IMG/VR virus record: IMGVR_UViG_3300032289_001724 | Coordinates: 1-30,120 of that record | From: a virus | Reading direction: 5' to 3' (one strand) | DNA length: 30,120 bases | Shown: piece by piece, positions 356-30,070 of the stretch | Layout of the letters: each line of letters begins with the position of its first letter | Numbering within the stretch: position 1 is the first letter of the stretch | Program-made: the position numbers and the translations under genes | The notes under the pieces: generated by a model | What the model was told of the DNA's origin: nothing | The model's database searches: none | The model's input: the letters and a program-made list of their open reading frames with translations, nothing else

Positions 356-3300
356 ATGCCAAACGAATTCAAAGTCAAAAATGGCCTGCTTGTTAGCGGG
401 TCTGCTAATATTAATTCTTCAGGATCTGAGGTTTTTTCAGTAGATGGTACTGCAGGTCGTCTATTCCAAATTGACGACTCTTTATCTGGTTCGTTATTCT
501 CAGTTAATACAGCAGCTGGTCTTCCCGTAATCGAAGCTTTTTCAGATAATACAACACGCATTGGTCAATTCGGCCAAAAAGCGTTATTTGTCTCTCAATC
601 AAAAGTTGGTGTAGGCAAAGAAGCCTTACTAAATGGTACATTAGATGTTAGTGGCAGTCTTACTGTTACTGGTTCACTTTTAGCCCCAACTATAACTGGT
701 TCATTATTAGGTACTGCCTCTTTTGCAGTAACTGCCTCTTGGGCATTAACACCAGCTGGTACATCAGGTACTGCTGGATCATCAGGTACTTCCGGCGCAA
801 ATGGCTCCTCAGGAACTTCTGGTTCTAGTGGTACTGCTGGTACTAGTGGCAGTTCTGGTACTCGGGGATCAAGCGGTTCTTCAGGCACGTCAGGCGCTAA
901 CGGTGCTAATGGCACAAGTGGGTCTAGTGGAACATCAGGTGCTAATGGTACTTCAGGATCAAGTGGTACTTCAGGCGCAAATGGCACTTCAGGATCAAGC
1001 GGCACTTCAGGCGCAAATGGTACTTCAGGATCAAGCGGCACTTCAGGCGCAAATGGCGCAAATGGCACTTCAGGTTCTTCAGGTACATCTGGTTCAAGTG
1101 GAACATCAGGTACATCAGGTACATCAGGTACATCCGGAACAAGCGGATCATCAGGTACTTCTGGATCATCTGGCACTAGAGGTTCATCAGGATCATCTGG
1201 TTCTTCTGGTTCTTCAGGTACCTCAGGTGCAAATGGTGCTAATGGTACTTCTGGGTCTTCAGGAACAAGTGGAGTTAATGGTGCGAATGGTTCTTCAGGT
1301 ACCTCAGGTGCAAATGGTGCAAATGGCACTTCAGGAAGTTCAGGCACTTCAGGTGCAAATGGCGCTAATGGTACTTCTGGTTCTTCAGGTACATCAGGTG
1401 CAAATGGTGCGAATGGCACTTCAGGAAGTTCAGGCACTTCAGGTGCAAATGGCGCTAATGGTACTTCTGGTTCTTCAGGTACATCAGGTGCAAATGGTGC
1501 GAATGGTACATCTGGTTCTTCTGGAACAAGTGGAGCAGCAGGTGCTCCCGGTACTTCTGGATCAAGTGGTACTTCAGGCGCTGCGGGCGCTCCAGGTTCT
1601 TCAGGTACATCTGGCTCATCTGGTACTTCAGGTACTTCTGGCTCATCAGGTACTCGAGGATCAAGTGGTTCCTCAGGAACTAGTGGAGCAAATGGTGTAA
1701 ATGGTTCAAGCGGTACTTCAGGCGCAAATGGTGCTAATGGTTCATCTGGATCATCAGGTACTTCAGGAGCAAATGGCGCAAATGGTTCATCTGGTACTTC
1801 CGGATCATCTGGTACACGGGGATCATCAGGTACTTCAGGAGCAAATGGCGCCAATGGTTCTTCAGGAACAAGTGGAGCAGCAGGTTCTTCAGGTACATCT
1901 GGTTCAAGTGGTACTTCTGGTGCTAACGGAGCCAATGGTTCTTCAGGAACTTCAGGTGCAAGTGGTGCCCCCGGAACTAGTGGTTCAAGTGGAACATCAG
2001 GCACAGGATTTAATAGTATTAACAATGCATTAAACGGAAGAGTTTTAGTATCTAATGGTACTACTAATGCAGCAACTGCTTCTAGCTTTTTAGTTCTAGA
2101 TACAACTAATGGTAAATTAACTTCTGTATATAATTCAAATGCTACTGTCAATTATATTGATATATCTGCAGCTTCTGCAAATAGCACAAATGGATATAAT
2201 GTATTTATAGGTAATTCCCCAACTGCATTAGCTACAGGTGGTGGTGGGGATACTGCTAGTTTTAACTCAAGTCTAGGATTTGACACACTTCCTTCTCTAA
2301 CCACAGGGTTTTATAATGTAGCTGTAGGAGGTCAAGCAGGATTTGCTTTAACTTCAGGTAAAGGAAATACAGCAATAGGAGTAGGATCATTATTCTCAAT
2401 TAATGATGATAATGACAATTCAGCTTTAGGATATAATACTTTAGCAAATTTAACAACAGGAAATGGAAATATAGCAATAGGATATCAAGCCGGTAGATAT
2501 TTTGGAGCGGGAATTGGCTCTAACGCTTCTGCTTCTCAAGGTATTTATTTAGGATGGCAGGCTAGAGCTAGTGCAAATGGACAAACTAACGAAACAGTTA
2601 TAGGATATAATGTTGTAGGTAATGGCTCAAATAGTATTACATTAGGTAATACAAATATAACCAAAACAATACTTAGATCAGGTGTAGGCATAGGAACAAC
2701 AGCACCAACTACAGCTCTACATGCGGTAGGACAATTAAGATTAGAATCTTATACTACAACAACATCTTATGCAGGTACAGCAGTTGGCGTGTTAGCATTT
2801 GATGCTACCGGTAGTATTTTAACAATTGCTACACCAGGTAGTGGTAGTGGTTCACCTGGAGGTGCAAATACAAACATTCAATTTAATGATAGTAGTGCAT
2901 TTAGTGGTTCAGGAAATTTTACATTTACTAAAGCAACTAATACAGTTAAGATACAAGGTAGTGGATCTACTTTATTACATATAACAGGCAGTGCTGGTGA
3001 TTTATTTAGAGTAGTAGATAGTGGTTCTAATTTTCCTACTATAGCTACATTTTCATCTGGTAGTGTAAACGTATTAACTGTAACTACTTCATCTGTAATT
3101 GTAACAGGCTCATTTGCAATCACCACAGGCAGTAATATTGAATTTCAAGTTACTAACACAGGGGTTAAAATAGGAGATCTAACTACAGATACTCATACTG
3201 TAACAGGATCTTTTAATATAAGCGGAAGTCAAACTATAACAGGCTCATTTAATTTAAGTGGAAGTAATGTTCGAGGATTACCAGAACATATGATATTAGC

Positions 3301-3640
3301 CTTATCAGATGAATCATCTTCTGTTCTTACTGCAGGTAATTCTAAAGTAGTATTTAGAGCTCCATATGCAATGTATCTATATCAAATTCCAAGATCATCC
3401 GTTTCACAAAGTTCATCTTCAGGTTTAGTAACTGTAGATATAAATGAAAATGGTACTTCAATATTAGGTGCAAATAAACTTTCTATAGACGCAAACGAAA
3501 AGACAAGTACAACAGCTGCTACTGCTACTACACTAGCTGATAATTTAATTGCTGATGATGCTGAAATTACATTAGATATAGATTCAGCTGGTACTGGTGC
3601 TAGAGGATTAAAGGTAACTTTATATTATCAAAGAGTATAA
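356..3640 (+). CDS. Large collagen-like tail fibre / adhesin with YadA-like head
   Basis: This is a 1094-residue fibre protein. Residues 1-134 are a Ser/Gly-rich beta-type N-terminus with repeated VSGSL/VTGSL strands, probably the part that binds the tail. Residues 135-548 are 138 consecutive Gly-X-Y triplets, mostly GTS, GSS and GAN, with four GTR and three GAP. This implies a collagen-like triple helix, hence a trimer. Residues of about 665-775 contain repeats such as NTAIGVGSL, SALGYNTL and NIAIGYQAG, which resemble the YadA head repeats of trimeric autotransporters. GVGIGTTAPTTALHAVG follows. Residues of about 975-1094 form a C-terminal beta domain of a type common in phage structural proteins (VDINENGTSIL, then EITLDIDSAGTGARGLKVTL). 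No S74 chaperone domain is seen. Start: ATG at 356, after a candidate promoter. It is a likely receptor-binding or whisker protein and a plausible acceptor for the downstream glycan enzymes. Confidence 0.85.
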   Translation: MPNEFKVKNGLLVSGSANINSSGSEVFSVDGTAGRLFQIDDSLSGSLFSVNTAAGLPVIEAFSDNTTRIGQFGQKALFVSQSKVGVGKEALLNGTLDVSGSLTVTGSLLAPTITGSLLGTASFAVTASWALTPAGTSGTAGSSGTSGANGSSGTSGSSGTAGTSGSSGTRGSSGSSGTSGANGANGTSGSSGTSGANGTSGSSGTSGANGTSGSSGTSGANGTSGSSGTSGANGANGTSGSSGTSGSSGTSGTSGTSGTSGTSGSSGTSGSSGTRGSSGSSGSSGSSGTSGANGANGTSGSSGTSGVNGANGSSGTSGANGANGTSGSSGTSGANGANGTSGSSGTSGANGANGTSGSSGTSGANGANGTSGSSGTSGANGANGTSGSSGTSGAAGAPGTSGSSGTSGAAGAPGSSGTSGSSGTSGTSGSSGTRGSSGSSGTSGANGVNGSSGTSGANGANGSSGSSGTSGANGANGSSGTSGSSGTRGSSGTSGANGANGSSGTSGAAGSSGTSGSSGTSGANGANGSSGTSGASGAPGTSGSSGTSGTGFNSINNALNGRVLVSNGTTNAATASSFLVLDTTNGKLTSVYNSNATVNYIDISAASANSTNGYNVFIGNSPTALATGGGGDTASFNSSLGFDTLPSLTTGFYNVAVGGQAGFALTSGKGNTAIGVGSLFSINDDNDNSALGYNTLANLTTGNGNIAIGYQAGRYFGAGIGSNASASQGIYLGWQARASANGQTNETVIGYNVVGNGSNSITLGNTNITKTILRSGVGIGTTAPTTALHAVGQLRLESYTTTTSYAGTAVGVLAFDATGSILTIATPGSGSGSPGGANTNIQFNDSSAFSGSGNFTFTKATNTVKIQGSGSTLLHITGSAGDLFRVVDSGSNFPTIATFSSGSVNVLTVTTSSVIVTGSFAITTGSNIEFQVTNTGVKIGDLTTDTHTVTGSFNISGSQTITGSFNLSGSNVRGLPEHMILALSDESSSVLTAGNSKVVFRAPYAMYLYQIPRSSVSQSSSSGLVTVDINENGTSILGANKLSIDANEKTSTTAATATTLADNLIADDAEITLDIDSAGTGARGLKVTLYYQRV
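947..1054 (+). repeat. Three tandem 36-bp repeats in the collagen region
   Basis: Copies start at 947, 983 and 1019, each encoding GTSGSSGTSGAN. They differ only at a few synonymous third positions. The near identity stands out against the otherwise shuffled codon use and suggests recent duplication. Confidence 0.85.
1322..1501 (+). repeat. 90-bp tandem duplication in the collagen region
   Basis: Two essentially identical 90-base copies lie back to back (about 1322-1411 and 1412-1501). Similarity extends leftwards into a less perfect partial copy from about 1290. Each unit encodes ten Gly-X-Y triplets. It is a likely site of unequal recombination or replication slippage that changes shaft length. 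Confidence 0.8.
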
Positions 3641-3642
3641 TT

Positions 3643-4803
3643 ATGAGTGGTTTTTTACTTAATTCATTTTTCCTTCAGGCAACAGCTGCTCCTAGTGGAA
3701 TTACAAGGATATTTTATGATTCCCCTTATACTGCTTCTAGATCAACTACAACAGTAAATGTTCCTGCAATAAATGTTTCAACAATTAACAGTGTAAATAG
3801 TGGCGTAAATGGTCTTGCAGTATTTTATATGGCTACTACGGATGTTGACTCTACAAACGCTGACGTTAATTTTAACTTAATAAGTGGATCCACTACAGTA
3901 ATAGGTCTTAACATGGAACCACAAGATCCTACTGATAGATTTTCTGTGGGTGGTGCTTATTTTGATTTATCAGAAACGAACGGTATATTTACATCTAGTT
4001 TTTCTCAAGAAACATTAGGTAACACAGCAGGATATGCTGGTTATTCATTAGTTGGTTTACAATTAACTGGTTCTGATAGTGGTTCTCATAGCCCTGGATC
4101 AACAGTATATAGAAGTACAACATATACAACTAAAACATCAGTACCCGTACCAGCAGGAACTTACATAGTAGTTGGCTCAGCTGCTGTTCTTACACAAGAT
4201 GCAGGTGCAGTAGCTAGGGTAAGAATGTTTGATGGTACTAACCAATATGGTGAAATGTTTGACATATATGAACAAGATATCTCCAACTGGACACCATACT
4301 GGCATATGTTTAGAAGAACAACAACAGGTACAACAACATTTAGTTTACAAGCAAGAAGTGATGGTAATAACGATATAGAAGTTAGACAAGCTAGTGTAAT
4401 AGTATTAAATACATCTCAATTCTCTAACGTATACTATGCTGAAAGTACCGGTTCATTTTCAACAGATAGTTCAACATATGTGAATGCAATGTCTGCTTCA
4501 TTTACAATAGCTAACCCATCTAATAAACACTTATTATTAGCAGCAGCTATGTTATCTGGTAGTCGTTCTGGTGTTAGTTCATTTAATTGTAAACTCCAAA
4601 ACACTACAACAGGTATAGACTATATACCAGAACACATAAGAGAACCAAATATAGTAGACGAATTGTATCCTACTATTGTGTGTAGAACAGTAACATTCTC
4701 TGGTGCTTCAAATACAATTGCATGGCAATTACTTGAGGAACTTAATGCCTCTGGTTCTTTACGTAATATGACTATAGCACTTCTAGATTTAGGAACAACT
4801 TAA
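3643..4803 (+). CDS. Beta-rich structural protein with repeated domains, probably adhesion-related
   Basis: This gene encodes 386 residues and begins 2 nt after the fibre stop. I see no named family. After a hydrophobic N-terminus the protein appears to contain three similar beta-sandwich-like units: about 30-150, 155-260 and 260-386. Units two and three can be aligned by eye. Each starts with an S/T-rich strand, then a hydrophobic strand (YIVVGSAAVL; LLLAAAMLSG), an acidic stretch with E/D and P (DISNWTPYW; EPNIVDELYP), a T-rich strand, and a closing strand (QASVIVLN; MTIALLDL). There are no catalytic motifs. Its place between a fibre and a LamG-like protein suggests a fibre tip, fibre connector or capsid/tail decoration protein. 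Function is inferred only. Confidence 0.7.
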   Translation: MSGFLLNSFFLQATAAPSGITRIFYDSPYTASRSTTTVNVPAINVSTINSVNSGVNGLAVFYMATTDVDSTNADVNFNLISGSTTVIGLNMEPQDPTDRFSVGGAYFDLSETNGIFTSSFSQETLGNTAGYAGYSLVGLQLTGSDSGSHSPGSTVYRSTTYTTKTSVPVPAGTYIVVGSAAVLTQDAGAVARVRMFDGTNQYGEMFDIYEQDISNWTPYWHMFRRTTTGTTTFSLQARSDGNNDIEVRQASVIVLNTSQFSNVYYAESTGSFSTDSSTYVNAMSASFTIANPSNKHLLLAAAMLSGSRSGVSSFNCKLQNTTTGIDYIPEHIREPNIVDELYPTIVCRTVTFSGASNTIAWQLLEELNASGSLRNMTIALLDLGTT

Positions 4804-4814
4804 AAATACACTAA

Positions 4815-5591
4815 ATGCCAGTTACTATATTTAATGGAAGAAGCCAGATATTTTCAGGAAATTTTTCTGTAGGGCCTAGAGAAACATCTACTACTATTGT
4901 AACAACAAACCTAACTCACCAGTTCGACGCAGGCAATGTATCTTCATACGGAGGTTCAGGTAATGTATGGACTAATTTAAGTGGTCCTAATAATTTAGCC
5001 TTAGTAAATACACCAACATTTGTATCTAATGGAGCTGCTAGCTATTTTTTATTTGATGGAGTAAGTGATTATATGTCTGGATCTGGATATCTAACAGGAT
5101 CTGCGGCTAAATCTCATACACTAAATATGATAATGTCTTTTGGTCCTGCACCTTTTCTTTTCAGTAGGATTAGATTCTTTTCAGATAATGGAAATCCAAC
5201 ATCATACGGAACTCTCCAATATTTTTCAGGACAGGGTCCAGGTGAAATACAAATATCACAAGGAACACCCAATTTTAATGCTACCGTGTATAGCAGTAAT
5301 CCAAATCAATTCTCACCATTATATACAACAGCAATGTATACTTTTGTTAGTAGTAATACTGGCATTGATTTTTATCTAAATGGTACTTTATTAGGTGGTA
5401 CTACTACTGATACTTTTGTTAATACTAGTTTTATTGATCCTACTAGAACTTATTGGTGGGCTTCTGCTGGAAATGGAGCTACTCCTATATCTATGTCTAT
5501 TGCTCATATAATGTGGTACTCATCATCATTATCGGCAGCAAATATTACTCAAAATTACAATGCATTAAAATCAAGATATTCTTTACCATAA
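4815..5591 (+). CDS. LamG/concanavalin-like carbohydrate-binding virion protein
   Basis: This gene encodes 258 residues. The pattern is that of a LamG/ConA-like jelly roll. An FDAG strand lies near residue 36, followed by VWTNLSG and YFLFDGVSDYM (about 76-87). After the central beta strands comes FYLNGTLLGG. The closing helix-strand AHIMWYSSSLSAANITQNY (from about 229) then runs into NALKSRYSLP. In this fold the domain usually binds glycans, so a receptor- or glycan-binding role on the phage tail is likely. The start is 11 nt after the previous stop. Its last residues match the truncated gene at the window's left edge, so the phage has at least two copies bracketing the fibre gene. It is followed by a candidate promoter at 5619. 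Confidence 0.75.
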   Translation: MPVTIFNGRSQIFSGNFSVGPRETSTTIVTTNLTHQFDAGNVSSYGGSGNVWTNLSGPNNLALVNTPTFVSNGAASYFLFDGVSDYMSGSGYLTGSAAKSHTLNMIMSFGPAPFLFSRIRFFSDNGNPTSYGTLQYFSGQGPGEIQISQGTPNFNATVYSSNPNQFSPLYTTAMYTFVSSNTGIDFYLNGTLLGGTTTDTFVNTSFIDPTRTYWWASAGNGATPISMSIAHIMWYSSSLSAANITQNYNALKSRYSLP

Positions 5592-5618
5592 AATTTGATT
5601 ATTTAAAATTTTTTAGTT

Positions 5619-5626
5619 ATATTTAT
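5619..5626 (+). promoter_or_regulatory. Candidate late promoter element (ATATTTAT) upstream of 5638
   Basis: The core ends 11 nt before the ATG at 5638 and lies in a 46-base AT-rich gap. The flank TTATTAATA is shared with the copy at 17159 before the tube gene. If it is real, it would head the unit that includes the glycan enzymes. Confidence 0.45.
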
Positions 5627-5637
5627 TAATACAAATT

Positions 5638-5967
5638 ATGATAGAACTTACTTATAATTGGAATTTTAATCCACTAGAATCATATCCTACAGCATCCGGT
5701 CAAACAGATGTAGTATTTTTAATACATTGGCAAGTAGAAGCCATAACAGGATCATATAGTGCTCGTCAAATTGGAACTCAACCCGTTCAATACACTTCAG
5801 AGTCAGTATTTATTCCTTTTAATGAATTAACATTTGATACTGTTTATGGTTGGGTTACTTCCTCTATGGGAGAGGAATATTACAATAGTATAACTACTAG
5901 TCTAACCCAACAAATAGAAAACCAAATTAATCCACCAGTATTAATTCAACAAGCCCCGTGGCTATAA
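5638..5967 (+). CDS. Small phage protein, unknown, fibre-associated by position
   Basis: This gene encodes 109 residues with the N-terminal pattern LTYNWNFNPLESYPTASGQTD. It is followed by alternating beta strands (VVFLIHWQVEAITGSYS, FIPFNELTFDTVYGWV) and a C-terminal helix rich in Gln/Glu/Asn. There is no signal peptide or membrane segment, and I cannot assign a family. It is the first gene after a candidate promoter and is followed 10 nt later by another small gene and then the glycan cassette, so it likely shares their transcript. The position next to fibre and LamG-like genes suggests a minor virion component, without direct evidence. Confidence 0.75.
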   Translation: MIELTYNWNFNPLESYPTASGQTDVVFLIHWQVEAITGSYSARQIGTQPVQYTSESVFIPFNELTFDTVYGWVTSSMGEEYYNSITTSLTQQIENQINPPVLIQQAPWL

Positions 5968-5977
5968 AATCTAAATT

Positions 5978-6160
5978 ATGTACGTAGTACTAAAACAATT
6001 CATCCCGGGTAACGATCAAATTTGGGTAGCCAAATTAACCCCAGATGACCCTGAATATATCTACCCAACAGAACAAGAAGCAATAGATAAAGCAGCTGAA
6101 TTACAAGCTACGGATCCTGATGGAAGACATTATAAAGCAGCACCATACGGAGAAATTTAA
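5978..6160 (+). CDS. Small hypothetical protein (60 aa)
   Basis: This gene encodes 60 residues. The sequence (VLKQFIPGNDQIWVAKL, then YIYPTEQEAIDKAAELQ) suggests a small alpha/beta fold: two strands, a helix and a final strand. There are no cysteines, membrane segment or catalytic motif. It lies 10 nt after the previous gene and 17 nt before the GT4-FkbM fusion, in the same orientation. The function is unknown. It is judged real because of the tight spacing, normal composition and a start context (AAATT before ATG) like its neighbours. Confidence 0.65.
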   Translation: MYVVLKQFIPGNDQIWVAKLTPDDPEYIYPTEQEAIDKAAELQATDPDGRHYKAAPYGEI

Positions 6161-6177
6161 TATAATTAAATCTAGTT

Positions 6178-8130
6178 ATGAAAGTTTTGTTTATAGCCCC
6201 TCACCTGTCAACAGGCGGAATGCCTCAGTACCTTTACAAACAAATGGAAGTTCTCTCTGAGAGCTGTGAAGTTTGGTGTATAGAATGGGATAATGTTACT
6301 GGTGGAGTATTAGTAGTTCAACGAAATCGCATTGTTAATTTATTAGGCAGTAGATTAATTACATTAGGGGAAAAAAGAGAAAATTTATTTTCTTTTATTA
6401 AAAACATAAACCCCGATGTAATCCACCTTCAGGAAATACCTGAGATGTTTATGCCTTACAATATTGCTTCAAGATTATATAATTTAGATAGAAAATATAC
6501 TATCATTGAAACATCACATGATTCTAGTTTTGACATAAACAATAAACTACATTTTCCAGATAGATTTGCAATGGTAAGTCAATATCAAGTTGATGCTTAC
6601 AAACCATTAGGTATTCCTTGTGATTTAGTAGAATATCCAATTGAATATCATAAACGCACTAAAACTAGAGAAGAACTATTAAACGAATTAGGATTAGATC
6701 CTGATAAAAAACACGTTATAACTGTTGGTTTATTTACACCAAGAAAAAATCAAGCTGAGGTTATTGAGTATTCTAAACAACTTCAAAACTATCCTATTCA
6801 ATTCCACTTTATTGGTAATCAAGCAGATAATTTCAAATATTATTGGGAACCATTAATGAAGGATTTTCCATCAAATTGTAAATGGTGGGGAGAACGAAGT
6901 GATGTTGATAAATTTTATCAAGCAGCTGATCTATTTTTGTTTACTTCTAGAGGATCTAATACAGATAAAGAAACAATGCCTTTAGTAATTAGAGAGGCAA
7001 TTAGTTGGCAAGTTCCTTCCTTAATCTATAATCTGGACGTATATTTAAATTACTTTGATAAACATAAAAATATTGAATATTTAGATTTTAAAAGTAAAGA
7101 AAATAATATTCAAAAAATAATAAATAAATTAAATACAAAACCAATGGCAAATTATAACATCTGGAGTAGATGGGATGCATCTGAGCAAAAAGTCTACTAT
7201 GGTACATCTGAAGACATAAATATTCCTATAATTATAACTTTAAGAGAATATCAATCAGATGGTGTATTGTGGTCTGGTGAGTATAATGCACTATATAAAA
7301 ATGCAGAATATTGGATGGTTCCTATAAATAAAGGCATGCATGATTATGAAAAAGATCCAAAATTTGGGGGGATAAAAATATGTATTTATAAAAAAGAAAA
7401 TAATGAGTTAATTTATGAATATCCTTATTTTCAAAAATTTGTAAATATTCCAAGAGTTTCTTTAAGTAATAGCATTCCTTATTATATAAATTATAAAGAA
7501 TTTTTTATTGAAGATAAATATAAAAAATATTTTAATAAAAAATTTGATAGTATAGTAGATGTTGGTGCAAATGTAGGAGTATTTACTGAATATTTAATTC
7601 AAAAAGAATTAAGTGAAAAAATCATTGCAGTAGAATGCGACAGCAAAGCATTAAAAGATTTAAAAAATAATTTTAAAAGAGAATATAGAGTAGAAATAAT
7701 TCCAAAAGCACTTAATTCTACAAATGATCCCATTACATTCTACCAATCAGAAGAAAATCCAATCATAAGCAGCACTATCCCCCCAGATAAATTAAAAAAT
7801 CACAATGCGGGAGTAAAAGGAAATGATAAAGTAGTTGTAGATACTATTACTATAAAAGATCTTGTAGATAAATTAGGTAATATAGATTTACTTAAGATTG
7901 ATATTGAAGGAGGAGAGTATGAAATTATTAAAAATGTAGATTCTTCTTTGTTCAAAAATATAAATAATATTTTAATTGAATGTCATTTTTTTGAAGAGGA
8001 TTATTTAGAAAAATATAATAATCTAGTTAGAAAATTATCTGATAATGGATATGAAGTTGAAGAATTTGTTAAAGATCAAGCTATTAAATATAAAGGAGGA
8101 AGTGAAGTAATATTCGCTACTAAAAAATAA
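6178..8130 (+). CDS. Bifunctional glycosyltransferase (GT4) - FkbM methyltransferase
   Basis: This gene encodes 650 residues. Residues 1 to about 330 form a GT-B glycosyltransferase of the GT4 type. The N-terminal strand MKVLFIAPHLSTGGMPQY is followed by the second-domain start HVITVGLFTPRKNQAEVI. The EX7E motif is at E265/E273 (ETMPLVIRE) and probably binds the sugar nucleotide. Residues of about 345-450 are a beta-rich linker with W and YWMVP. Residues of about 455-650 are an FkbM-family SAM-dependent O-methyltransferase: motif I is VDVGANVGVFT (from 460) and the family signature is DLLKIDIEGGEYEII (from 570). The protein probably adds a sugar and O-methylates a sugar of the same glycan in the cytoplasm. 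It is the first gene of a run with 2-6 nt spacings. Donor, acceptor and linkage cannot be read from the sequence. Confidence 0.85.
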   Translation: MKVLFIAPHLSTGGMPQYLYKQMEVLSESCEVWCIEWDNVTGGVLVVQRNRIVNLLGSRLITLGEKRENLFSFIKNINPDVIHLQEIPEMFMPYNIASRLYNLDRKYTIIETSHDSSFDINNKLHFPDRFAMVSQYQVDAYKPLGIPCDLVEYPIEYHKRTKTREELLNELGLDPDKKHVITVGLFTPRKNQAEVIEYSKQLQNYPIQFHFIGNQADNFKYYWEPLMKDFPSNCKWWGERSDVDKFYQAADLFLFTSRGSNTDKETMPLVIREAISWQVPSLIYNLDVYLNYFDKHKNIEYLDFKSKENNIQKIINKLNTKPMANYNIWSRWDASEQKVYYGTSEDINIPIIITLREYQSDGVLWSGEYNALYKNAEYWMVPINKGMHDYEKDPKFGGIKICIYKKENNELIYEYPYFQKFVNIPRVSLSNSIPYYINYKEFFIEDKYKKYFNKKFDSIVDVGANVGVFTEYLIQKELSEKIIAVECDSKALKDLKNNFKREYRVEIIPKALNSTNDPITFYQSEENPIISSTIPPDKLKNHNAGVKGNDKVVVDTITIKDLVDKLGNIDLLKIDIEGGEYEIIKNVDSSLFKNINNILIECHFFEEDYLEKYNNLVRKLSDNGYEVEEFVKDQAIKYKGGSEVIFATKK

Positions 8131-8133
8131 ATA

Positions 8134-9141
8134 ATGAAAGAAATAGTTATCTTATCTTGTTGGCCTAGTGATGAATATAGGGAAAAACTTTTAGTAGATT
8201 TAATTAACAAATTAAAAACACTAAATAAAGAAATACTAATAGCTTCACATCATGTTATTCCTTCCTATATAATTAATATGGTTGATTACTGTATATATGA
8301 TAAAACTAATACAATATATACAAATAAAACCCTAAAAACATACCCAGCAGACTATTATTTTAAGTGTGATTTATTTAGGATAGAAGCAATAAATATTGCT
8401 CATTCTGCTGCTCTTTCTAGAATTTTTAATATTGCTCTTAATTTTATCAAAAATTTAGAATATGATTATTTTACTATTCTAGAAGCAGATGCTGAATTTG
8501 ATATAAATGATTTAAAAAAATTAGATGATATAAAGGTAGATTTAGTAAAAAACAATAAAAAATTATTTTTTTTCAAATTAAGACCTTATGAATTTCCTTA
8601 TTGGGAAGATAATGGAATTTTTGAAGTATATGAAACTTTTTGTTTTGGGGGTTTTTTAAAAGAATTTAATTCTAAACTTACCTTTCCTAAAACGTTAGAT
8701 GAATGGAATCAAAATCTTTTAAAAGATAAAAATAACCATTTATTTGAATACATAGTAACAGAAGCCTTTAAAGAACATAAAAATAATTATGCAATCCTAG
8801 ACTCATCTAGAAATATTTTTACTAATTCTAAAACGAATACATCTACTATTATTAAATTAAATGGAGTATATATTAACCCTAAAGATATAAATACTCCAAT
8901 ATTATTTTTCCACAATGAATCAAATCAAACTAGAACATATAAAATACTTTCTCCTTTTTTACAAGAAGTTACTTTAGATCCTGATTATTGGTGGTTTAAT
9001 TATTTAAGTATGAGTGAACCTAACATTGATGTTAAGGTAGTTGTATATGAAGAAGATAAGATAATTGAAAGTTTTAATTCATTAATAGATAAAGAATGGA
9101 TTGATAGAGAAAAAAATAGAAGACAAATTTTATTCAAATAA
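8134..9141 (+). CDS. Putative glycosyltransferase (GT-A-like)
   Basis: This gene encodes 335 residues and starts 3 nt after the preceding stop. The N-terminus IVILSCWPSDEYREKLLVDL suggests a Rossmann-like nucleotide-sugar domain. A hydrophobic strand then ends in YFTILEADAEFDI, with D119 and acidic E117/E121 where GT-A enzymes have their DxD-type metal and nucleotide-sugar site. The classic D-x-D spacing is not exact, so activity is uncertain. The rest (FFFKLRPYEFPYWEDNG, FCFGGFLKEF) resembles the acceptor half of small GT-A enzymes. No membrane segment is seen. The operon position among sugar-modifying enzymes supports a role in building the same glycan. Confidence 0.6.
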   Translation: MKEIVILSCWPSDEYREKLLVDLINKLKTLNKEILIASHHVIPSYIINMVDYCIYDKTNTIYTNKTLKTYPADYYFKCDLFRIEAINIAHSAALSRIFNIALNFIKNLEYDYFTILEADAEFDINDLKKLDDIKVDLVKNNKKLFFFKLRPYEFPYWEDNGIFEVYETFCFGGFLKEFNSKLTFPKTLDEWNQNLLKDKNNHLFEYIVTEAFKEHKNNYAILDSSRNIFTNSKTNTSTIIKLNGVYINPKDINTPILFFHNESNQTRTYKILSPFLQEVTLDPDYWWFNYLSMSEPNIDVKVVVYEEDKIIESFNSLIDKEWIDREKNRRQILFK

Positions 9142-9147
9142 AAATAC

Positions 9148-10368
9148 ATGACTGTAAATCAATGCCCTATAACATATGATTCTGATAAATTTACCTATTT
9201 TAGTTTAGGTGATATGCCTTTAGTAAATAATTTATCTAATACAAAAGAAGAATCCTTTAATTGTATTAAATACCCATTAGAGGTTCAATATTTTTCTAAA
9301 AGTAAATTATCATGTCTTACATATAATGTGGACCCAAACCTAATGTTCTCAGATTATTCGTATAAATCTGGAGTATTAAAACCATATATAGAGCATTGTA
9401 AAGAGATGTTTTGGTTTGTTGATCACTATACTTTATTAAAAGAAGAAGATAATGTTTTAGATATTGGGGGAAATGATGGTACATTACTAAAAACTTTTTT
9501 AAAAGAAAAACCATTTTTACAAGTCTTAAATGTTGATGCTTCAGCTAATTTAACAAAATTAAGTAACCAACAAGGAGTACCATCAATTAATGCTTTTTGG
9601 GGAGTAGATACAGCTAAAAAAATAGATAAAAAGTTTAAATTAATTACATCTACAAATGTGTTTCAACATACTCCACCAATTGAAGACTATGTAGAGGCTA
9701 TATCAATAAGTTTAGATAAATTTGGAATATGGTGCTTAGAATTTCCTTATTGGAAAACAAATATGGAAACAAAACAATATGATCAAATTTATCATGAACA
9801 TGTTTATTATTATTTAATAGAACCATTAAAAACATTATTTGAAAAATATAATTTAAGGATTGTAAAAGCTGTTAAATATCCTATTCATGGAGGAAGTTTA
9901 CGACTATTAATTACTCATATTGGTGAGTTAGGAGAAGCATTTCAACCTTGTGATGGAGTTCAACAGTTAATTGAAGAAGAACAAAAAATTACTAAAGATT
10001 ATTATAAAGAATGGGGTAATGATATTAAAAATCATATTTTGAGTTGCAGAGAATTTTTAATATCTTTAAAACAACAAGGAAATAATATAGTAGGATTTGG
10101 AGCTGCCGCTAAAGGATGTATATTTTTAAATAGTGCTCAAATTGATTGTAATATATTAGATGTTGTTATAGATGATACTGATTTAAAACAAGATAAATAT
10201 ATACCCGGAACTGGTATACAAATTAAAAATAGGAATTACTTAAAAGAAAATAAAGTAGATTATATTTTAATATTAGCTCATAATTTTAAAGAAGAAATTA
10301 TAAACAATTTAAAAAATCACTATCAAGGTAAATACATTATTCTTTTCCCAGAAATACAAATTATATAA
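9148..10368 (+). CDS. Sugar C-methyltransferase family protein (class I SAM methyltransferase)
   Basis: This gene encodes 406 residues with the three-part architecture of NDP-hexose C-methyltransferases. The N-terminal part (about 1-80) keeps the spacing of the usual zinc-binding domain (FSLGDMPLVNN, then KYPLEVQ). Most of the expected paired cysteines are missing, so the metal site looks eroded. The SAM domain follows, with VLDIGGNDGTLL (from 103) and the family signature YHEH at 215-218, where the catalytic Tyr/Glu/His are expected, then IHGGSLRLL. The C-terminal domain has VGFGAAAKGCIFLNSA and the DDTDLKQDKYIPGTGIQI pattern. The known role of the family is C-methylation of a keto-sugar nucleotide when branched deoxysugars are made. 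It starts 6 nt after the preceding stop and ends 2 nt before the next gene. Confidence 0.85.
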   Translation: MTVNQCPITYDSDKFTYFSLGDMPLVNNLSNTKEESFNCIKYPLEVQYFSKSKLSCLTYNVDPNLMFSDYSYKSGVLKPYIEHCKEMFWFVDHYTLLKEEDNVLDIGGNDGTLLKTFLKEKPFLQVLNVDASANLTKLSNQQGVPSINAFWGVDTAKKIDKKFKLITSTNVFQHTPPIEDYVEAISISLDKFGIWCLEFPYWKTNMETKQYDQIYHEHVYYYLIEPLKTLFEKYNLRIVKAVKYPIHGGSLRLLITHIGELGEAFQPCDGVQQLIEEEQKITKDYYKEWGNDIKNHILSCREFLISLKQQGNNIVGFGAAAKGCIFLNSAQIDCNILDVVIDDTDLKQDKYIPGTGIQIKNRNYLKENKVDYILILAHNFKEEIINNLKNHYQGKYIILFPEIQII

Positions 10369-10370
10369 TT

Positions 10371-11201
10371 ATGGTTTTTTTCTTATACAGTAACAAAGCA
10401 TATGAACATCAAGCAATAGCTTGTATAAAATCCTTATCTAATAAGATAACAGATGATGTAAAAATAGTTTACTATACTATTGGATTTGACAGTGATTTTG
10501 AATTTAAAAATTTAACTAAGGTATATTTTCCTCTTAAAGATCAATATCCATCTTTTTACTATTATAAAGCAGAATTATCTTTACTTACAATGGATATGTT
10601 TCCTAATGAACATTATATGTTCTCTGATACAGATATATTATATTCTAGAAGATTTTCTTTTGATAATCTAAAACATGATTTACCATATCCTAAAGCTAGT
10701 TTTGGTCCTCATGAATATCCCTTTATGTGGGAATTAGATAATAATGGAGAAACAGTAATTCTTGATGAGACAAGATTAATGAATTATCTTAATGTTCCTG
10801 GAAGAACACAAAGATACGTTTGGTCATGTATGTATACTTTTAATTCTAATTGTAGAGATTTTTTTGAAGAATACACCTCATTATGTAATTATAAATACCT
10901 TTTAGATAAAAGATGGTATTATTATCCAATGCATGATGAAACTCCATTTAATATTTGTTTATGGAAAAGAAATGCCACTGAAAGTTTAGGATTTGCTTTT
11001 TTAAATACCCATTCACCAAGTGCTGTTAGATTAACTGAAGAAAATATTATTAAGGATCAAAATTTAAATAATCATTTTGATGCTAAAGGAAATAATTGGG
11101 AATATATTTATGATTCTGAACAAATCATTGCTTATCACGGATTTAAAGAAAAAAAAGGAATAGATGAAGCATTAAATTATCTATTAAATGGACATCAATA
11201 A
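10371..11201 (+). CDS. Putative GT-A glycosyltransferase with DxD motif
   Basis: This gene encodes 276 residues. The order of elements fits a GT-A glycosyltransferase. The N-terminal strand MVFFLYSNKAYEHQAIACI is followed by a second strand (VKIVYYTIGF), then MFSDTDILYSRRF with D86-T87-D88, a good DxD metal/nucleotide-sugar motif at the usual distance. Later come HDETPFNICLW and the final IIAYHGFKEKKG, a His near the C-terminus as in GT8-like enzymes. I do not assign a family. It sits in the middle of the glycan gene run, and its 3' end overlaps a 31-codon remnant in another frame. Confidence 0.65.
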   Translation: MVFFLYSNKAYEHQAIACIKSLSNKITDDVKIVYYTIGFDSDFEFKNLTKVYFPLKDQYPSFYYYKAELSLLTMDMFPNEHYMFSDTDILYSRRFSFDNLKHDLPYPKASFGPHEYPFMWELDNNGETVILDETRLMNYLNVPGRTQRYVWSCMYTFNSNCRDFFEEYTSLCNYKYLLDKRWYYYPMHDETPFNICLWKRNATESLGFAFLNTHSPSAVRLTEENIIKDQNLNNHFDAKGNNWEYIYDSEQIIAYHGFKEKKGIDEALNYLLNGHQ

Positions 11202-11283
11202 TCAAGGAATAATCATACAGGGATCTACAGATCTTTATCATAAAGAAATTGTTGATTTTTATTCTCAATTTAATAATAAATAA
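11188..11283 (+). pseudogene. Possible remnant N-terminus of a WavE-like glycosyltransferase gene
   Basis: A 31-codon open frame starts with ATG inside the end of the preceding gene (14-nt overlap, different frame) and ends with TAA 6 nt before the next gene. The product begins MDINNQGIIIQGSTDLYHKE. The pattern GIIIQG followed by a short helix resembles the start of WavE-type and related phage/LPS glycosyltransferases, where this strand opens the nucleotide-sugar domain. Such an enzyme needs about 250 residues or more, so this looks like a gene that lost its body by deletion. The alternative is a real micropeptide or plain spacer. The match is short, so confidence is modest. Confidence 0.4.
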
Positions 11284-11289
11284 AATAAA

Positions 11290-12225
11290 ATGAAATTATT
11301 AAATATAGGATTTGATAAAAGTGAATGTAAACTATATTTTGAATGTAACACAGCAGACGTTAAAATTAGTAATTGTAGTATTGTAATATCTGATTTACAT
11401 TTAGATTGCGCTTATTATACTTGGGATAATTTAACAATTTCTAATACTTTTAATTGTTGGGTAATTCCTCTTGGCACAAAATTAGTAAATACAGTTTTAC
11501 AAAATAATAAATTTCCTGGTTTTTGTGTTAAAGTGTATGGCCCTAATAAGCGATTGCTACAAATTGATAAATTTATAATGAATAATGTTGATCCTTTAGT
11601 AAAAAGACCATATAGTACTCCTACACATGACGATGTTGGACCATCATATGTTGACTTTTTCTTTGGTGATTTGTGTGCAGGAATGGATACAAAAGGTGTT
11701 GTAATAGATGCAGGTGCTAATGTAGGATTTTTTACCTTATTTGCTAAAGAAAATGGAGCTACAAGAGTATATAGTATAGAACCTGACCCTTTACCTTACA
11801 ATTTTTTAGAATCCAATTACAAACATGACCCTTCAGTTATTACTATAAATAAGGTGTTAAGCCATAAAAATGAACCTGTTGATTTTAATATAGTATTAAT
11901 AAATTCAGTAGGTAGTGTTATGAGTGAATATAGAATAAAAGATGATAATGTTTTTTCTGCCAAAATAGATTCAATATCTTTACATAATATATTAAATATA
12001 GAACCAACAATCAATCTTTTAAAATTAGATATTGAGGGAGCGGAATATGATGTATTAGATAATTTAGACAGTAGTTACTTTAAAAATATAAATCAATTCT
12101 TTATTGAATTTCATAAAGATCCTAAACCAATTTTTAATAGACTTGTTAATGAAGGGTATCAAGTAGAATATAGACATTCAAATGAAAATGATATTGCTGG
12201 TTTTATATACGCTAAAAAAATATGA
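11290..12225 (+). CDS. FkbM-family SAM-dependent methyltransferase with N-terminal beta domain
   Basis: This gene encodes 311 residues. Residues 1 to about 105 are a beta-rich domain (YYTWDNLTISN, NCWVIPLGTK, CVKVYGPNKRLLQ). Its layout resembles the linker before the FkbM part of the protein at 6178. Residues of about 130-311 are the FkbM methyltransferase: motif I VVIDAGANVGFFTLF (from 138), acidic SAM-ribose contact IEPD, and the signature NLLKLDIEGAEYDVL (from 242). The closing DSSYFKNINQFFIEFH closely matches DSSLFKNINNILIECH in the 6178 protein, so the two are probably paralogues. The expected role is O-methylation of a sugar hydroxyl. It stops with TGA, unusual here, inside an ATGA overlap with the next start, so translation is likely coupled. 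Confidence 0.85.
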   Translation: MKLLNIGFDKSECKLYFECNTADVKISNCSIVISDLHLDCAYYTWDNLTISNTFNCWVIPLGTKLVNTVLQNNKFPGFCVKVYGPNKRLLQIDKFIMNNVDPLVKRPYSTPTHDDVGPSYVDFFFGDLCAGMDTKGVVIDAGANVGFFTLFAKENGATRVYSIEPDPLPYNFLESNYKHDPSVITINKVLSHKNEPVDFNIVLINSVGSVMSEYRIKDDNVFSAKIDSISLHNILNIEPTINLLKLDIEGAEYDVLDNLDSSYFKNINQFFIEFHKDPKPIFNRLVNEGYQVEYRHSNENDIAGFIYAKKI

Positions 12226-14312
12226 AGATAATTAATGTTACGCCGGGTTTACTTCCAATTCCTCCTAATGGGTGGGGTGCTGTAGAAAAAATAATTTGGG
12301 AGACACATAATGCTCTATTAGAATTAGGTCATGATTCTCAAATTCAATATTTAAATGAAGTAGAAGATTATGATATTGTTCATATTCATGTTGCTAATTT
12401 AGCTAATATGGCACATGAACGAGGTATTCCTTATTATTTTACTATGCATGACCATCATGCTTATTTGTATGGTAAAGAATCTCAAGTATATAAAGAAAAT
12501 TTACAAGCAATAAAAAATGCTAAAAAAGCATTTGTACCTGCTAAATTTTTAGTTGATTATTTTGAAGGAATACCTGAATATTTTTCCCACGGAGTTAATA
12601 CTGATTATTTTACTCCTAGTGGAATTAAAGAACATAAGTTATTATGTGTAGCTAATAATGGTTTTATTCATAATCAAGCTGAAGATAGAAAAGGATTTGG
12701 ATATGCTATTGAAGCAGCTAAACAACTTAATTTACCAATTACAATAGCAGGCCCTAATAATAACAAAAATTATTTTGATACATTCCCCCCAGATTATGAT
12801 AAGCTTACTATTCTTTATGATTTAAATGAAGAACAATTAAGGGATTTATATAAAGAACATAGTATATTTGTACATGCTTCTATTTTGGAGGCAGGACATC
12901 CTAACTTAACTTTACTTGAAGCATTAGCTTCAGGATTACCCATAGTAGGTACTTTTGAAGATAATAATAACTTAGAAGGATTATTAAAGATAGATAGAGA
13001 TGTAAATCAAATAAAACAAAAAATTAAATATTTAATTTCTAATCCAATAGTTCATTTAAAATATTCTAAAAGAGCTAAACAACAGGCTTTAGAATTATCT
13101 TGGAAAAACAGAGTAAAAGATTTATTAGGTAAATACGAAATTAGTATGAAAGATCAATTAATATCAATTTATAAAACTGAAAGATTGAATAAACCCTCAA
13201 AACCAAATACACCTAGGTTTAACATTAATTTTATTAATGGTCCTTTTGTTGAAATATTAAATTCACCGTATAAAAACCATATAGTAAAATTTATAAATAA
13301 AAATACTGGTGGAATAGAATATTCCCAAAAAGTAGGAAGTGACTGTTGGGTTAGAGCAGGTAAACAATATTTTATTGATTGGAAAATAAAAGTAGAAGAT
13401 GAAAATGGAAATACAATATTTGAGCATGACTACAATGCTGAAGGTAAAAAAGTGTATATTGCTTTAGATTCAAAATCACTAGGTGATACACTAGCCTGGT
13501 TTCCATATGTAGACGAATTTAGAAAAAAACATAACTGCAAAATAGTTTGCTCCACATTCCATAACCATCTATTCCAAAACCAATACCCAGAAATTGAATT
13601 TATTAGACCTGGAGAAACAGCAAATGGGTTATACGCTATGTATACTGTAGGATGGTTTTATTTTGCTGATGGTAAGATGGATTTAAATAAAAATGTATCT
13701 GATTTTAGATGTATACCTTTACAACAAACATCGTCTGATATTTTAGGATTAAAATTTAAAGAAGTTATACCTAAATTAAAAAAATCATTAGCAGCTAAAA
13801 AGAAACAAATATCAATCGCAATTCATGGCACAGCACAAGCTAAATATTGGAATAACATAGACGGATGGCAAAAAATTGTTGATTGGTGTTCTAATAAAGG
13901 ATATGAAGTATTTTTATTATCTAAAGAAGAAGATGGATATATGGGTAATATTCATCCTAAAGGAATAAAATACCTTAATTCATATGATTTAGATAATACC
14001 ATAAAAACACTACATGAGTCAGAATTATTTATTGGTATCAGTAGTGGATTAAGTTGGTTAAGTTGGGCAACTAACACTCCAACAATTGTCATTTCTGGAT
14101 TTACAGAGCCATATACTGAACCAGAAAGTTGTTATCACCTTGATGCACCACAAGATAAATGTAGGGGATGTTTTAATTCACACCAATTAGATGCAGGAGA
14201 TTGGAATTGGTGCCCAGTACATAAAGGAACAAATCGCCAATTTGAATGTTCTAAATCAATAACTTCTGAAATGGTAATAAAAAAGTTGAGAGAAATTTTG
14301 GTTGTTTCCTAA
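12222..14312 (+). CDS. GT4 glycosyltransferase fused to TibC/Aah-type (BAHT) O-heptosyltransferase
   Basis: This gene encodes 696 residues. Residues 1 to about 320 are a GT4-type GT-B enzyme (IINVTPGLLPIPPNGWGAVE; DIVHIHVAN; donor-site region EAGHPNLTLLEALASGLPIV from E223). From residue 334 a second complete enzyme begins, matching the autotransporter strand-loop-strand O-heptosyltransferase family (TibC, Aah; GT9-like). It shows NFINGPFVEI, KQYFIDWKIKV, IALDSKSLGDTLAWFPYVDE, FRCIPLQQTSSDILG and HGTAQAKYWNNIDGWQ. It also has the four-cysteine cluster C647-x2-C650-x13-C664-x11-C676, placed like the iron-binding finger of TibC. Known members transfer heptose to Ser/Thr hydroxyls of autotransporter adhesins. 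Here it probably primes glycan addition on a protein, with the GT4 half adding another sugar. It overlaps the previous gene by 4 nt (ATGA). Confidence 0.85.
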   Translation: MKIINVTPGLLPIPPNGWGAVEKIIWETHNALLELGHDSQIQYLNEVEDYDIVHIHVANLANMAHERGIPYYFTMHDHHAYLYGKESQVYKENLQAIKNAKKAFVPAKFLVDYFEGIPEYFSHGVNTDYFTPSGIKEHKLLCVANNGFIHNQAEDRKGFGYAIEAAKQLNLPITIAGPNNNKNYFDTFPPDYDKLTILYDLNEEQLRDLYKEHSIFVHASILEAGHPNLTLLEALASGLPIVGTFEDNNNLEGLLKIDRDVNQIKQKIKYLISNPIVHLKYSKRAKQQALELSWKNRVKDLLGKYEISMKDQLISIYKTERLNKPSKPNTPRFNINFINGPFVEILNSPYKNHIVKFINKNTGGIEYSQKVGSDCWVRAGKQYFIDWKIKVEDENGNTIFEHDYNAEGKKVYIALDSKSLGDTLAWFPYVDEFRKKHNCKIVCSTFHNHLFQNQYPEIEFIRPGETANGLYAMYTVGWFYFADGKMDLNKNVSDFRCIPLQQTSSDILGLKFKEVIPKLKKSLAAKKKQISIAIHGTAQAKYWNNIDGWQKIVDWCSNKGYEVFLLSKEEDGYMGNIHPKGIKYLNSYDLDNTIKTLHESELFIGISSGLSWLSWATNTPTIVISGFTEPYTEPESCYHLDAPQDKCRGCFNSHQLDAGDWNWCPVHKGTNRQFECSKSITSEMVIKKLREILVVS

Positions 14313-28783: not shown

Positions 28784-30070
28784 ATGTTTTATATTATAGA
28801 AAGGTCATCTCAATTACCAACTAATTTTGAGGATTGTTTCGTTAGGTTTATTCCTAAAAGCAATAATTTTCATCCCGCTCTAACTGATCTAAGTTTAGTT
28901 TATATTCGTCCTCTTAATCATAGAAAAGGATATATCATCTGTTTAGATCACAATGAATCATTTGGTATTGACAAAACAGAAGTAATTAATTGGTTACTTA
29001 ATAACACAAATAGATTATGGGTGTTAAATAAGAAAGAAGCAATGCATTGGGTTTATCCATTAAAAGATAAATTATTTGATGTTAATTTTATTGAGTATAT
29101 TGATACAAGTAATGTAGGTACTAAATGCGTTGATTTCTACTACAGCAAATACGTCAATTTATCTAACATTAATTGTCTAATTCCAATCAGTAAGCACTAT
29201 GAGGAAAGCGAAGCATTATTTGAAATTATATCTCCTATAATTAAAAATCCTATTACTTTACAATTTGAATTTCAAAACACTCGCACCACAGAGGTATTTT
29301 ATCAAATTGAAAAAAACGGTATTAATCTAAATAAAAAATGCTTTATAGAACACTATAAAGAGAAAATGCACTATCCCGAATTTAATATTAGTAAGGGCAG
29401 AATATATACTCAATATAATTTATATACAACCACCACTCGCCCATCAAACACATTTAATAATGTTAATTTCGCAGCATTAAATAAAGACAATGGTGAGCGC
29501 ACATGCTATAAACCCGAATTTGATAAATTCATTGAATTAGATTTTCAAGGATATCACCCACGATTAATTGGTGAATTAGTTGAATGGCATTTTCCTAATG
29601 ATACTAATACTTATGAAATATTGGGTCAATCATTAAATGTATCACCACAAGAAGCTAAGGAATTAACATTTAAACAGTTGTATGGTGGTGTTTGGAGTGA
29701 ATATCAAGACAAACCATTCTTTAAGCAAGTAAATATGTTTATTGATAATATGTGGGATATTTATCAATATGATAATTCATATACAACCGCTAATAAAATA
29801 TTTAAACGTAATGATGAAAATATTACTCGCAATAAATTATTTAATTATATAATTCAAAGTTACGAAACATCTAATAATATTCAATTATTAGAACAAGTAC
29901 TAGATTATTTAAAAGATAAAAAAACTAAATTAGTATTGTATACTTACGATGCGTTTCTATTCGATTATAATAAAGAAGACGGCGCAATATTCACAGAAAT
30001 ATCCAAAATCTTAGAATACCCAGTAAGTATTAAACAAGGCACATCATATCACGGTCTAACAAAAATATAA
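28784..30070 (+). CDS. Divergent family A DNA polymerase (palm/fingers), short form
   Basis: This gene encodes 428 residues. The order of family A motifs is visible. First comes a thumb-like IEKNGINLNKKCF, then GRIYTQYNLYTTTTRPSNTF, which matches the Pol I region around TGRLSS. Motif A is LDFQGYHPRLIG with catalytic D253. Motif B is AKELTFKQLYGG (K292, F296, Y300, G301), aligning to the Pol I O-helix AKAINFGLIYGM. Motif C is LYTYDAFLFDY with the catalytic Asp. Several usual residues differ: Pol I E710 is His258, R754 is Pro288, H881 is Tyr and E883 is Ala. Residues 1-150 are too short and unclear for a proofreading exonuclease. ATG 28784 is chosen because the ATG at 28777 is out of frame. It is likely the replicative polymerase core or a repair-type enzyme. 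Confidence 0.8.
   Translation: MFYIIERSSQLPTNFEDCFVRFIPKSNNFHPALTDLSLVYIRPLNHRKGYIICLDHNESFGIDKTEVINWLLNNTNRLWVLNKKEAMHWVYPLKDKLFDVNFIEYIDTSNVGTKCVDFYYSKYVNLSNINCLIPISKHYEESEALFEIISPIIKNPITLQFEFQNTRTTEVFYQIEKNGINLNKKCFIEHYKEKMHYPEFNISKGRIYTQYNLYTTTTRPSNTFNNVNFAALNKDNGERTCYKPEFDKFIELDFQGYHPRLIGELVEWHFPNDTNTYEILGQSLNVSPQEAKELTFKQLYGGVWSEYQDKPFFKQVNMFIDNMWDIYQYDNSYTTANKIFKRNDENITRNKLFNYIIQSYETSNNIQLLEQVLDYLKDKKTKLVLYTYDAFLFDYNKEDGAIFTEISKILEYPVSIKQGTSYHGLTKI

Follow-up and report, generated by a model that had tools for sequence, protein, structure and literature searches.

Why would a bacterial virus, represented by environmental DNA only, carry both a collagen-like tail fibre and a block of sugar-enzyme genes? 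We addressed this in a 30,120-nucleotide stretch of its DNA (hereafter the window), for which the original prediction was that the phage uses the cassette to decorate its own fibre, an interpretation that our analysis supports in part.

A glycan island within the tail module

The enzyme genes form a low-GC island that lies, by synteny, inside the tail module (Table 1). It contains six open reading frames rather than the seven genes proposed. Family matches bear out two GT4-type enzymes, one fused to a methyltransferase and one to a BAHT domain, as well as the sugar C-methyltransferase and both FkbM domains. For the two enzymes described as GT-A-like the indication is structural: neither has a sequence-family match (a Pfam search of the GT-A-like 2 set returned none) or significant direct sequence homology to solved structures, but their low-confidence models (pLDDT 63 and 61) suggest nucleotide-sugar-transferase/GT-A folds, with Foldseek returning GT-A/nucleotidyltransferase folds for the first from E=7.5e-6. 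A late-type motif had been placed before the cassette; the motif in question, TATAAATA, does not occur in 5967-6178 and is not above chance in the window (16 vs 11.6 expected).

Table 1. Features of the fibre and glycan-island region (window coordinates)
Feature	Position	Strand	Basis
Tail fibre, proposed substrate	356..3640	+	1094 aa; PF01391 E=4e-59; Pro-poor, Ser/Thr-rich collagen tract
Gly-X-Y tract, aa 135-551	758..2008	+	70% Ser/Thr, 1% Pro of X+Y
Structural-region protein	3643..4803	+	No family match; N-terminus resembles post-fibre gene of L110
LamG/ConA-like lectin-fold tail or structural protein	4815..5591	+	PF13385 E=6e-4 (below Pfam cut-off); phrog_24074 E=3e-14
DUF7936 tail-region protein, left flank	5638..5967	+	PF25590 E=1e-23; kept in L090
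Conserved 60-aa ORF, left border of island	5978..6160	+	Also in island-free L090 (2662-2844)
Whole glycan island, about 8.1 kb, GC 26%	about 6166..14290	+	blastn breakpoints, GC, synteny; absent from L090 and L110
GT4 fused to FkbM methyltransferase	6178..8130	+	PF00534 E=3e-16; PF05050 E=6e-18
GT-A-like glycosyltransferase 1	8134..9141	+	No Pfam family; low-confidence model
Sugar C-methyltransferase	9148..10368	+	PF08484 E=6e-34; PF13489 E=7e-14
GT-A-like glycosyltransferase 2	10371..11201	+	Invariant D86-x-D88; low-confidence model
FkbM-family methyltransferase	11290..12225	+	TIGR01444 82.9 bits vs cut-off 37.7
GT4 (aa 1-320) fused to BAHT protein O-glycosyltransferase (aa 349-692)	12222..14312	+	TIGR04414; TibC 4rap

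The fibre belongs to PF01391 by virtue of a single, uninterrupted Gly-X-Y tract of 139 triplets, or the 138 first reported if triplets with Gly in X or Y are left out. GTS (51), GSS (42) and GAN (30) are its main triplets, with Ser at 94 of 139 Y positions and Thr (58), Ser (42) and Ala (37) at X, in agreement with the Thr/Ser dominance noted originally. Because proline is so scarce, the stability of any triple helix that this tract might form without sugar is, judging from its composition, doubtful. An 87-aa N-terminal part of the fibre shares 51% identity with the tail fibre annotated in Flavobacterium phage immuto, and residues 1-116 and 916-1094 are 81% and 87% identical to the collagen-free fibre of the close relative L110.

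Close relatives provide empty sites. The nearest, L090, keeps both flanks and is missing the island; in L110 the two ends of the fibre are preserved, while collagen and island are both lacking, with no blastn match to about 680-3100, which includes the Gly-X-Y tract. The DUF7936 protein is likewise found in cassette-free relatives. These comparisons bear on an unlikely alternative in which the cassette acts elsewhere on the virion, on the LamG protein, the product of 3643-4803, the sheath or the capsid, and the fibre is only one target or a bystander. Two of these candidates are encoded between fibre and island, and mycobacteriophage capsids are glycosylated by phage-encoded transferases (as cited in PMC11256854), yet homologues of sheath, tube and hub persist in island-free relatives, and the feature that we found common to unrelated BAHT-positive phages is GTS-type collagen.

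The BAHT domain and its residues

Assignment of the 12222-14312 enzyme to the BAHT family is, on sequence grounds, certain: the whole domain matches TIGR04414 at 282.6 bits against a curated cut-off of 200 and the TibC structure 4rap at E=1e-52. The functional residues of TibC are matched, with Asp-110 (catalytic base) as D422, the ligand residues Lys-230 and Trp-305 as K541 and W612, and the iron-finger Cys-339, 342, 358 and 370 as C647, C650, C664 and C676; among 99 unique BAHTs, D110 is kept in all and the four cysteines together in 97. The exception is Arg-286, the adenine contact that confers ADP-donor specificity in TibC, which is Thr593 here. With this Arg lost, the heptose-type glycan of the original prediction becomes doubtful as regards its donor sugar, and since Arg occupies the position in just 19 of the 99 unique sequences, several of them bacterial, we do not claim the ‘heptosyl’ part of the TIGR04414 name.

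BAHTs are a family of protein O-glycosyltransferases, and TibC modifies Ser, not Thr; the substrates of TibC and AAH are Ser residues of beta-helical repeats, not collagen (PMC4358343). The window BAHT is predicted to transfer sugar to Ser of a protein. An AIDA-type substrate, the classical target of BAHTs, was considered and rejected, since AIDA repeats (PF16168) were detected in 0 of 43 BAHT-positive phage contigs; the window's own proteins gave no match, and both Paraburkholderia controls encode such repeats adjoining BAHT.

BAHT co-occurs with Ser/Thr-rich collagen

A genome survey of Ser/Thr-rich collagen and BAHT had been proposed as a check, and the two co-occurred in several samplings that complement the empty-site comparisons. 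In viral contigs 57 kb or longer chosen by a DNA pattern for GTS-type or GPQ-type collagen, a choice that selects on composition, BAHT was present in 16 of 22 GTS-picked contigs vs 2 of 18 GPQ-picked (Fisher p=1e-4) and 0 of 10 in a third set; one of the two BAHT-positive GPQ-picked contigs also has a 78-triplet GSS/GTS tract, and the 6 large GTS-collagen contigs without BAHT are perhaps incomplete. At the same size threshold, GTS/GSS runs occurred in 15 of 18 BAHT-positive contigs vs 0 of 11 BAHT-negative sheath relatives, with zero for a reversed-pattern control. Among tail-sheath relatives, collagen above the cut-off was found in 5 of 7 BAHT-positive vs 0 of 43 BAHT-negative contigs. The two collagen-free BAHT-positive contigs are fragments (20.8 and 23.5 kb) encoding the 698-aa BAHT form seen in the collagen-positive G002 and G003. 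Just two changes on the tree explain the BAHT-positive sheath contigs, so this sample does not represent many independent events.

The pairing extends to dozens of diverse environmental viruses, one 735-kb phage and one bacterial contig. GTS-type collagen accompanies 41 BAHT clusters when these are drawn at 80% identity and 25 at 60%, among them that of a Polaromonas MAG contig whose BAHT adjoins a lipoprotein with a GTSG tract. An isolate, Microcystis phage Mel-JY01, has both collagen and BAHT parts. A random 16-mer sample of viral contigs was mostly short, with no Gly-X-Y tracts in the loci examined, and was therefore not used as the main control. Domain fusions tie the cassette enzymes to BAHT: homologues of GT-A-like 1 are fused to it in two contigs (L023, L002) and of GT-A-like 2 in four (L184, L253, L413, L414), the window's GT4 domain is fused to BAHT elsewhere too, and the GT4 type of 6178-8130 accompanies 38 of 51 BAHT clusters with loci of at least 9 kb. 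In a BAHT-anchored sample, all 17 fused-BAHT contigs had collagen.

Many phages have collagen-like fibres and many have glycosyltransferases, and the sampling was pattern-based with incomplete contigs, so a coincidence of two common traits of large aquatic phages might be considered. It is, however, highly improbable and already disfavoured by the rarity of BAHT in similar-sized GPQ-type collagen phages, the lack of collagen in BAHT-negative sheath relatives, the empty sites and the domain fusions.

Genes of the GT4, FkbM and C-methyltransferase kinds are commonplace in surface-glycan clusters. Accordingly, the cassette might modify host surface polysaccharide or LPS, for superinfection exclusion or receptor masking, with an indirect collagen link through shared host or ecology; about half of the BAHT-negative sheath relatives have GT4 genes without BAHT, and several large genomes place BAHT and collagen tens of kilobases apart. 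We nevertheless judge this reading improbable, given that the BAHT family consists of protein O-glycosyltransferases (PMC4358343), that the island lies within the tail module, that island and collagen are both missing from close relatives, and that BAHT tracks GTS collagen more sharply than do FkbM (13/22 GTS-picked, 5/18 GPQ-picked, 3/10 third set) or GT4 (17/22, 7/18 and 5/10). A cassette without any Ser/Thr-rich repeat protein, which the original prediction named as evidence against itself, was seen in no close relative and in part in the 636-kb huge-phage genome W03, which has a 36%-identical BAHT and no collagen; around that BAHT we saw neither the rest of the cassette nor a repeat protein rich in Ser/Thr.

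A model for fibre glycosylation

Gene content and comparative genomics make it probable, in our view, that the island serves to glycosylate virions and that it acts chiefly on the collagen shaft, Ser/Thr-rich and Pro-poor, of the phage itself. In the scheme that we infer, from substrate, residue and sugar to order of steps and physical role, the BAHT domain would place the first sugar on Gly-X-Y hydroxyls, probably of Ser and mostly at Y, in the host cytoplasm prior to assembly. Extension of the glycan would fall to the GT4 fused to BAHT, the GT4-FkbM protein and both GT-A enzymes, and its methylation to the FkbM and C-methyltransferase domains. The sugars may lend stability or stiffness to a proline-lacking collagen helix, and may form a protective, variable coat on the fibre. 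We are nearly evenly divided on, and lean slightly away from, a broader reading in which phages of several groups share a module of two parts, namely a Gly-(Ser/Thr)-Ser shaft with almost no proline and a BAHT-centred glycosylating set, with sugars replacing (hydroxy)proline in the helix and both parts gained or lost together, also in at least one bacterial contig.

The model suggests a function for a viral glycosyltransferase group that is widespread (one scan of viral contigs gave 304 BAHT relatives) and rare in the phage records searched, where the domain appears in 3 distinct lineages. If it is true, BAHT, known from autotransporter adhesins, gains a new kind of substrate, and glycosylation makes proline-free collagen workable.

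Comparison with known systems

The open-access literature searched yielded nothing relevant on phage BAHTs or glycosylated phage collagen; an earlier description in other papers is possible. The phage enzyme resembles TibC and AAH, which act on AIDA-type autotransporters, in its TIGR04414 match, its catalytic and Cys residues and the proximity of enzyme and putative substrate genes. It differs in its GT4 fusion, its place in a tail module without an AIDA-repeat substrate, Thr593 in place of Arg-286, and collagen as the proposed target. BclA, found on bacterial spores, has triplets of the Pro/Thr type and is served by other transferases. The BclA-type collagen of Bacillus spores bears O-glycans on its collagen-like tract (PMC8968730), as we propose for the phage, whose tract, by contrast, is Pro-poor and Ser/Thr-rich and whose enzyme is a BAHT.

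The lysyl hydroxylase/glucosyltransferase L230 of mimivirus glycosylates virus-encoded proline-poor collagen peptides (PMC9614988), likewise pairing a viral enzyme with viral proline-poor collagen, a pairing predicted from genes in the phage; that case involves a eukaryotic virus, hydroxylysine-linked glucose and an unrelated enzyme. Mycobacteriophages Che8 and Rita encode glycosyltransferases and bear glycans on virion proteins (cited in PMC11256854), a combination that genomics suggests here; the target there is a capsid protein, and that source mentions neither BAHT nor collagen. Collagen-like proteins are also encoded by E. coli O157:H7 prophages, for which the abstract of PMC3368898 mentions no glycan cassette. 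In Riftia cuticle collagen, glycosylated Thr is reported to replace hydroxyproline at helix-stabilising positions (Mann et al. 1996, cited in PMC11766948); as this is an animal collagen, its likeness to the phage fibre is a physical analogy only.

A collagen fibre and a glycan cassette in a T4-like phage

The window spans an entire IMG/VR record (30,120 bases) and represents part of the genome of a T4-like phage with a contractile tail: from 15,434 onward, recognisable products include the sheath, tube and hub of the tail as well as endolysin-like proteins. Among annotated sheaths, the closest come from Flavobacterium phage immuto and Microcystis phage Mel-JY01 (each 48%). A Mel-JY01 product (PP395634.1 4750-8430) is annotated 'methyltransferase FkbM', yet its content is a GT4–GTA1-like–BAHT polyprotein, and Pfam returned no FkbM match on it.

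The central idea of the original prediction, that a phage cassette glycosylates the phage's own Ser/Thr-rich collagen fibre, is, as a predicted function, well supported on comparative grounds. The fibre's collagen tract is dominated by Ser/Thr as described: it (aa 135-551) comprises 139 uninterrupted Gly-X-Y triplets, with 70% Ser/Thr and 1% Pro over the X and Y positions and Ser at 94 of the 139 Y positions. This low Pro content is unusual, since Pro in X averages 19-31% among published bacterial collagens (PMC8968730).

Features of the window
Feature	Position	Length	Remark
Collagen-like fibre	356-3640	1094 aa	single uninterrupted Gly-X-Y tract
Tail-region ORF	5978-6160	60 aa	at the island's left edge; conserved in L090, the window's sister
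GT4-FkbM	6178-8130		island ORF 1
GTA1 (GT-A-like)	8134-9141		island ORF 2
Sugar C-methyltransferase	9148-10368		island ORF 3
GTA2 (GT-A-like)	10371-11201		island ORF 4
FkbM	11290-12225		island ORF 5
GT4-BAHT	12222-14312		island ORF 6
Protein of which parts may resemble DNA polymerase motifs	28784-30070	428 aa	no family match over cut-off

The cassette holds six ORFs, one fewer than first counted, and the late-type motif reported ahead of it is no more frequent than chance. The predicted models of GTA1 and GTA2 are weak (pLDDT 63 and 61). In Foldseek they match folds of the GT-A or nucleotide-sugar-transferase kind; human collagen galactosyltransferase is among the matches of GTA1, and GT6 enzymes are among those of GTA2. 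Because TM-scores are low (about 0.3-0.5), we assign both putatively to that fold class only. Fusions of the window's GTA1, GTA2 and GT4 types to BAHT are found in other phages and tie these types to a single pathway; the GT4 type of 6178-8130 is present in 38 of 51 BAHT clusters (loci of at least 9 kb).

The BAHT domain resembles TibC

The BAHT domain of the last ORF scores 282.6 bits against TIGR04414 (cut-off 200) and aligns with TibC (4rap) at E=1e-52. Among the TibC residues named in PMC4358343, Asp-110, Lys-230 and Trp-305 are conserved (D422, K541, W612), as are Cys-339/342/358/370 (C647/C650/C664/C676), while Pro-300 is replaced by Ser607, as in AAH, and Arg-286 by Thr593. Of the 99 unique BAHT relatives compared, all retain Asp-110 and 97 the Cys residues, but only 19 retain Arg-286. 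In TibC, Arg-286 touches the adenine of its ADP-linked donor (PMC4358343), so most phage BAHT enzymes may or may not share that donor, and the 'heptose-type' glycan originally proposed is doubtful. Ser is the likelier acceptor in the fibre tract, since TibC modified Ser and not Thr (PMC4358343).

BAHT and Ser/Thr-rich collagen co-occur

The survey of co-occurrence called for beforehand found the association in several samplings: by sheath, collagen type, BAHT and architecture. By sheath, collagen exceeded the cut-off in 5/7 BAHT+ vs 0/43 BAHT- contigs (p=1e-5, which overstates independence, the rows being related); the two collagen-negative BAHT+ contigs are short fragments whose 698-aa BAHT form is shared with collagen-positive contigs. 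By collagen type, among contigs of 57 kb or more, BAHT was present in 16/22 retrieved with a GTS-GTS-GTS DNA pattern (including G095 at 193 bits, slightly below the curated cut-off) vs 2/18 retrieved with a GPQ pattern (p=1e-4), one of the latter two also bearing a 78-triplet GSS/GTS tract. FkbM (13/22, 5/18 and 3/10) and GT4 (17/22, 7/18 and 5/10) rank the GTS-type contigs, the GPQ-type contigs and the BAHT- sheath relatives in BAHT's order, but less sharply than BAHT itself (16/22, 2/18 and 0/10).

By BAHT, runs of four Ser/Thr triplets occurred in 15/18 contigs of at least 57 kb (four with only one or two runs each) and in 0/11 BAHT- sheath relatives, and a reversed-pattern control gave none. 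Incompleteness may explain two of the three negatives, G016 and G040, whose BAHTs share 94% and 100% identity with BAHTs on positive contigs; the 636-kb W03 is a real exception, BAHT+ but lacking such runs. By architecture, collagen accompanied fused BAHTs in 17/17 contigs and stand-alone BAHTs in 10/34 rows of the BAHT-anchored sample, many of the latter rows being on short contigs. BAHTs from contigs with such collagen form 41 clusters at 80% identity and 25 at 60%, and pooled tracts of BAHT-anchored loci contain 72% Ser/Thr and 4% Pro. The 735-kb phage LR756501.1 has 1,247 matches to the four-triplet Ser/Thr collagen DNA pattern and encodes a GT4-BAHT fusion that shares 41% identity with that of the window.

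AIDA repeats were found in 0/43 BAHT+ phage contigs and in both Paraburkholderia genomes, where an AIDA-repeat protein lies directly upstream of the BAHT gene. On a Polaromonas MAG contig with BAHT neighbours of chromosomal type, a 47% identical BAHT adjoins a 102-aa putative lipoprotein (both at L558:9965-11408), and a GTSG collagen tract (PF01391 match) makes up over half of that lipoprotein; this single contig may show the pairing in a cellular setting.

Relatives carry empty sites

GC content is 26% in the island (about 6166-14290), 38% in its left flank and 31% in its right. L090, the window's sister in the sheath tree (SH-aLRT 97), has the left (5619-6165) and right (14294 on) flanks and, in place of the island, only ~1.1 kb of other DNA. 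Its fibre-like protein, which begins off the contig, shows no Gly-X-Y run in the 776 aa that are visible. In L110, a 50.7-kb contig whose sheath is 78% identical to the window's, the ends of a 332-aa fibre match window fibre aa 1-116 (81%) and 916-1094 (87%). The stretch joining these ends lacks collagen, and L110 has no island. In the BAHT+ relatives G003 and G005, a GT cassette occupies the equivalent site and GTS-rich collagen proteins are encoded as well. BAHT state requires at least two changes on the sheath tree.

In G002, G003 and G005, 61-aa ORFs adjoin the cassette. G003, the closest long relative, also encodes two 2OG-Fe(II) oxygenases (PF13759; L552:2766-4071) between its glycan cassette and collagen fibre genes, possibly hydroxylating fibre or sugar, and three more very long collagen-like frames (1,088-2,011 aa; 45000-60000) far from the tail module.

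A proposed mechanism

Beyond what is established for the cassette (enzyme families, conserved residues, co-occurrence, fusions and empty sites), we propose that BAHT would start an O-glycan on Ser of the collagen tract in the cytoplasm, which the remaining enzymes would extend and methylate. The components are of known kinds; for their combination, in which BAHT would modify the collagen shaft of a phage, a search of openly accessible literature returned no description. A proline-free collagen helix is expected to be weak, which, with the Riftia precedent, makes replacement of proline by sugar a plausible reason for the BAHT–collagen pairing. In Riftia cuticle collagen, according to Mann et al. 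1996 as cited in PMC11766948, stabilising positions are occupied by glycosylated Thr, a likeness to the phage tract that we offer as analogy.
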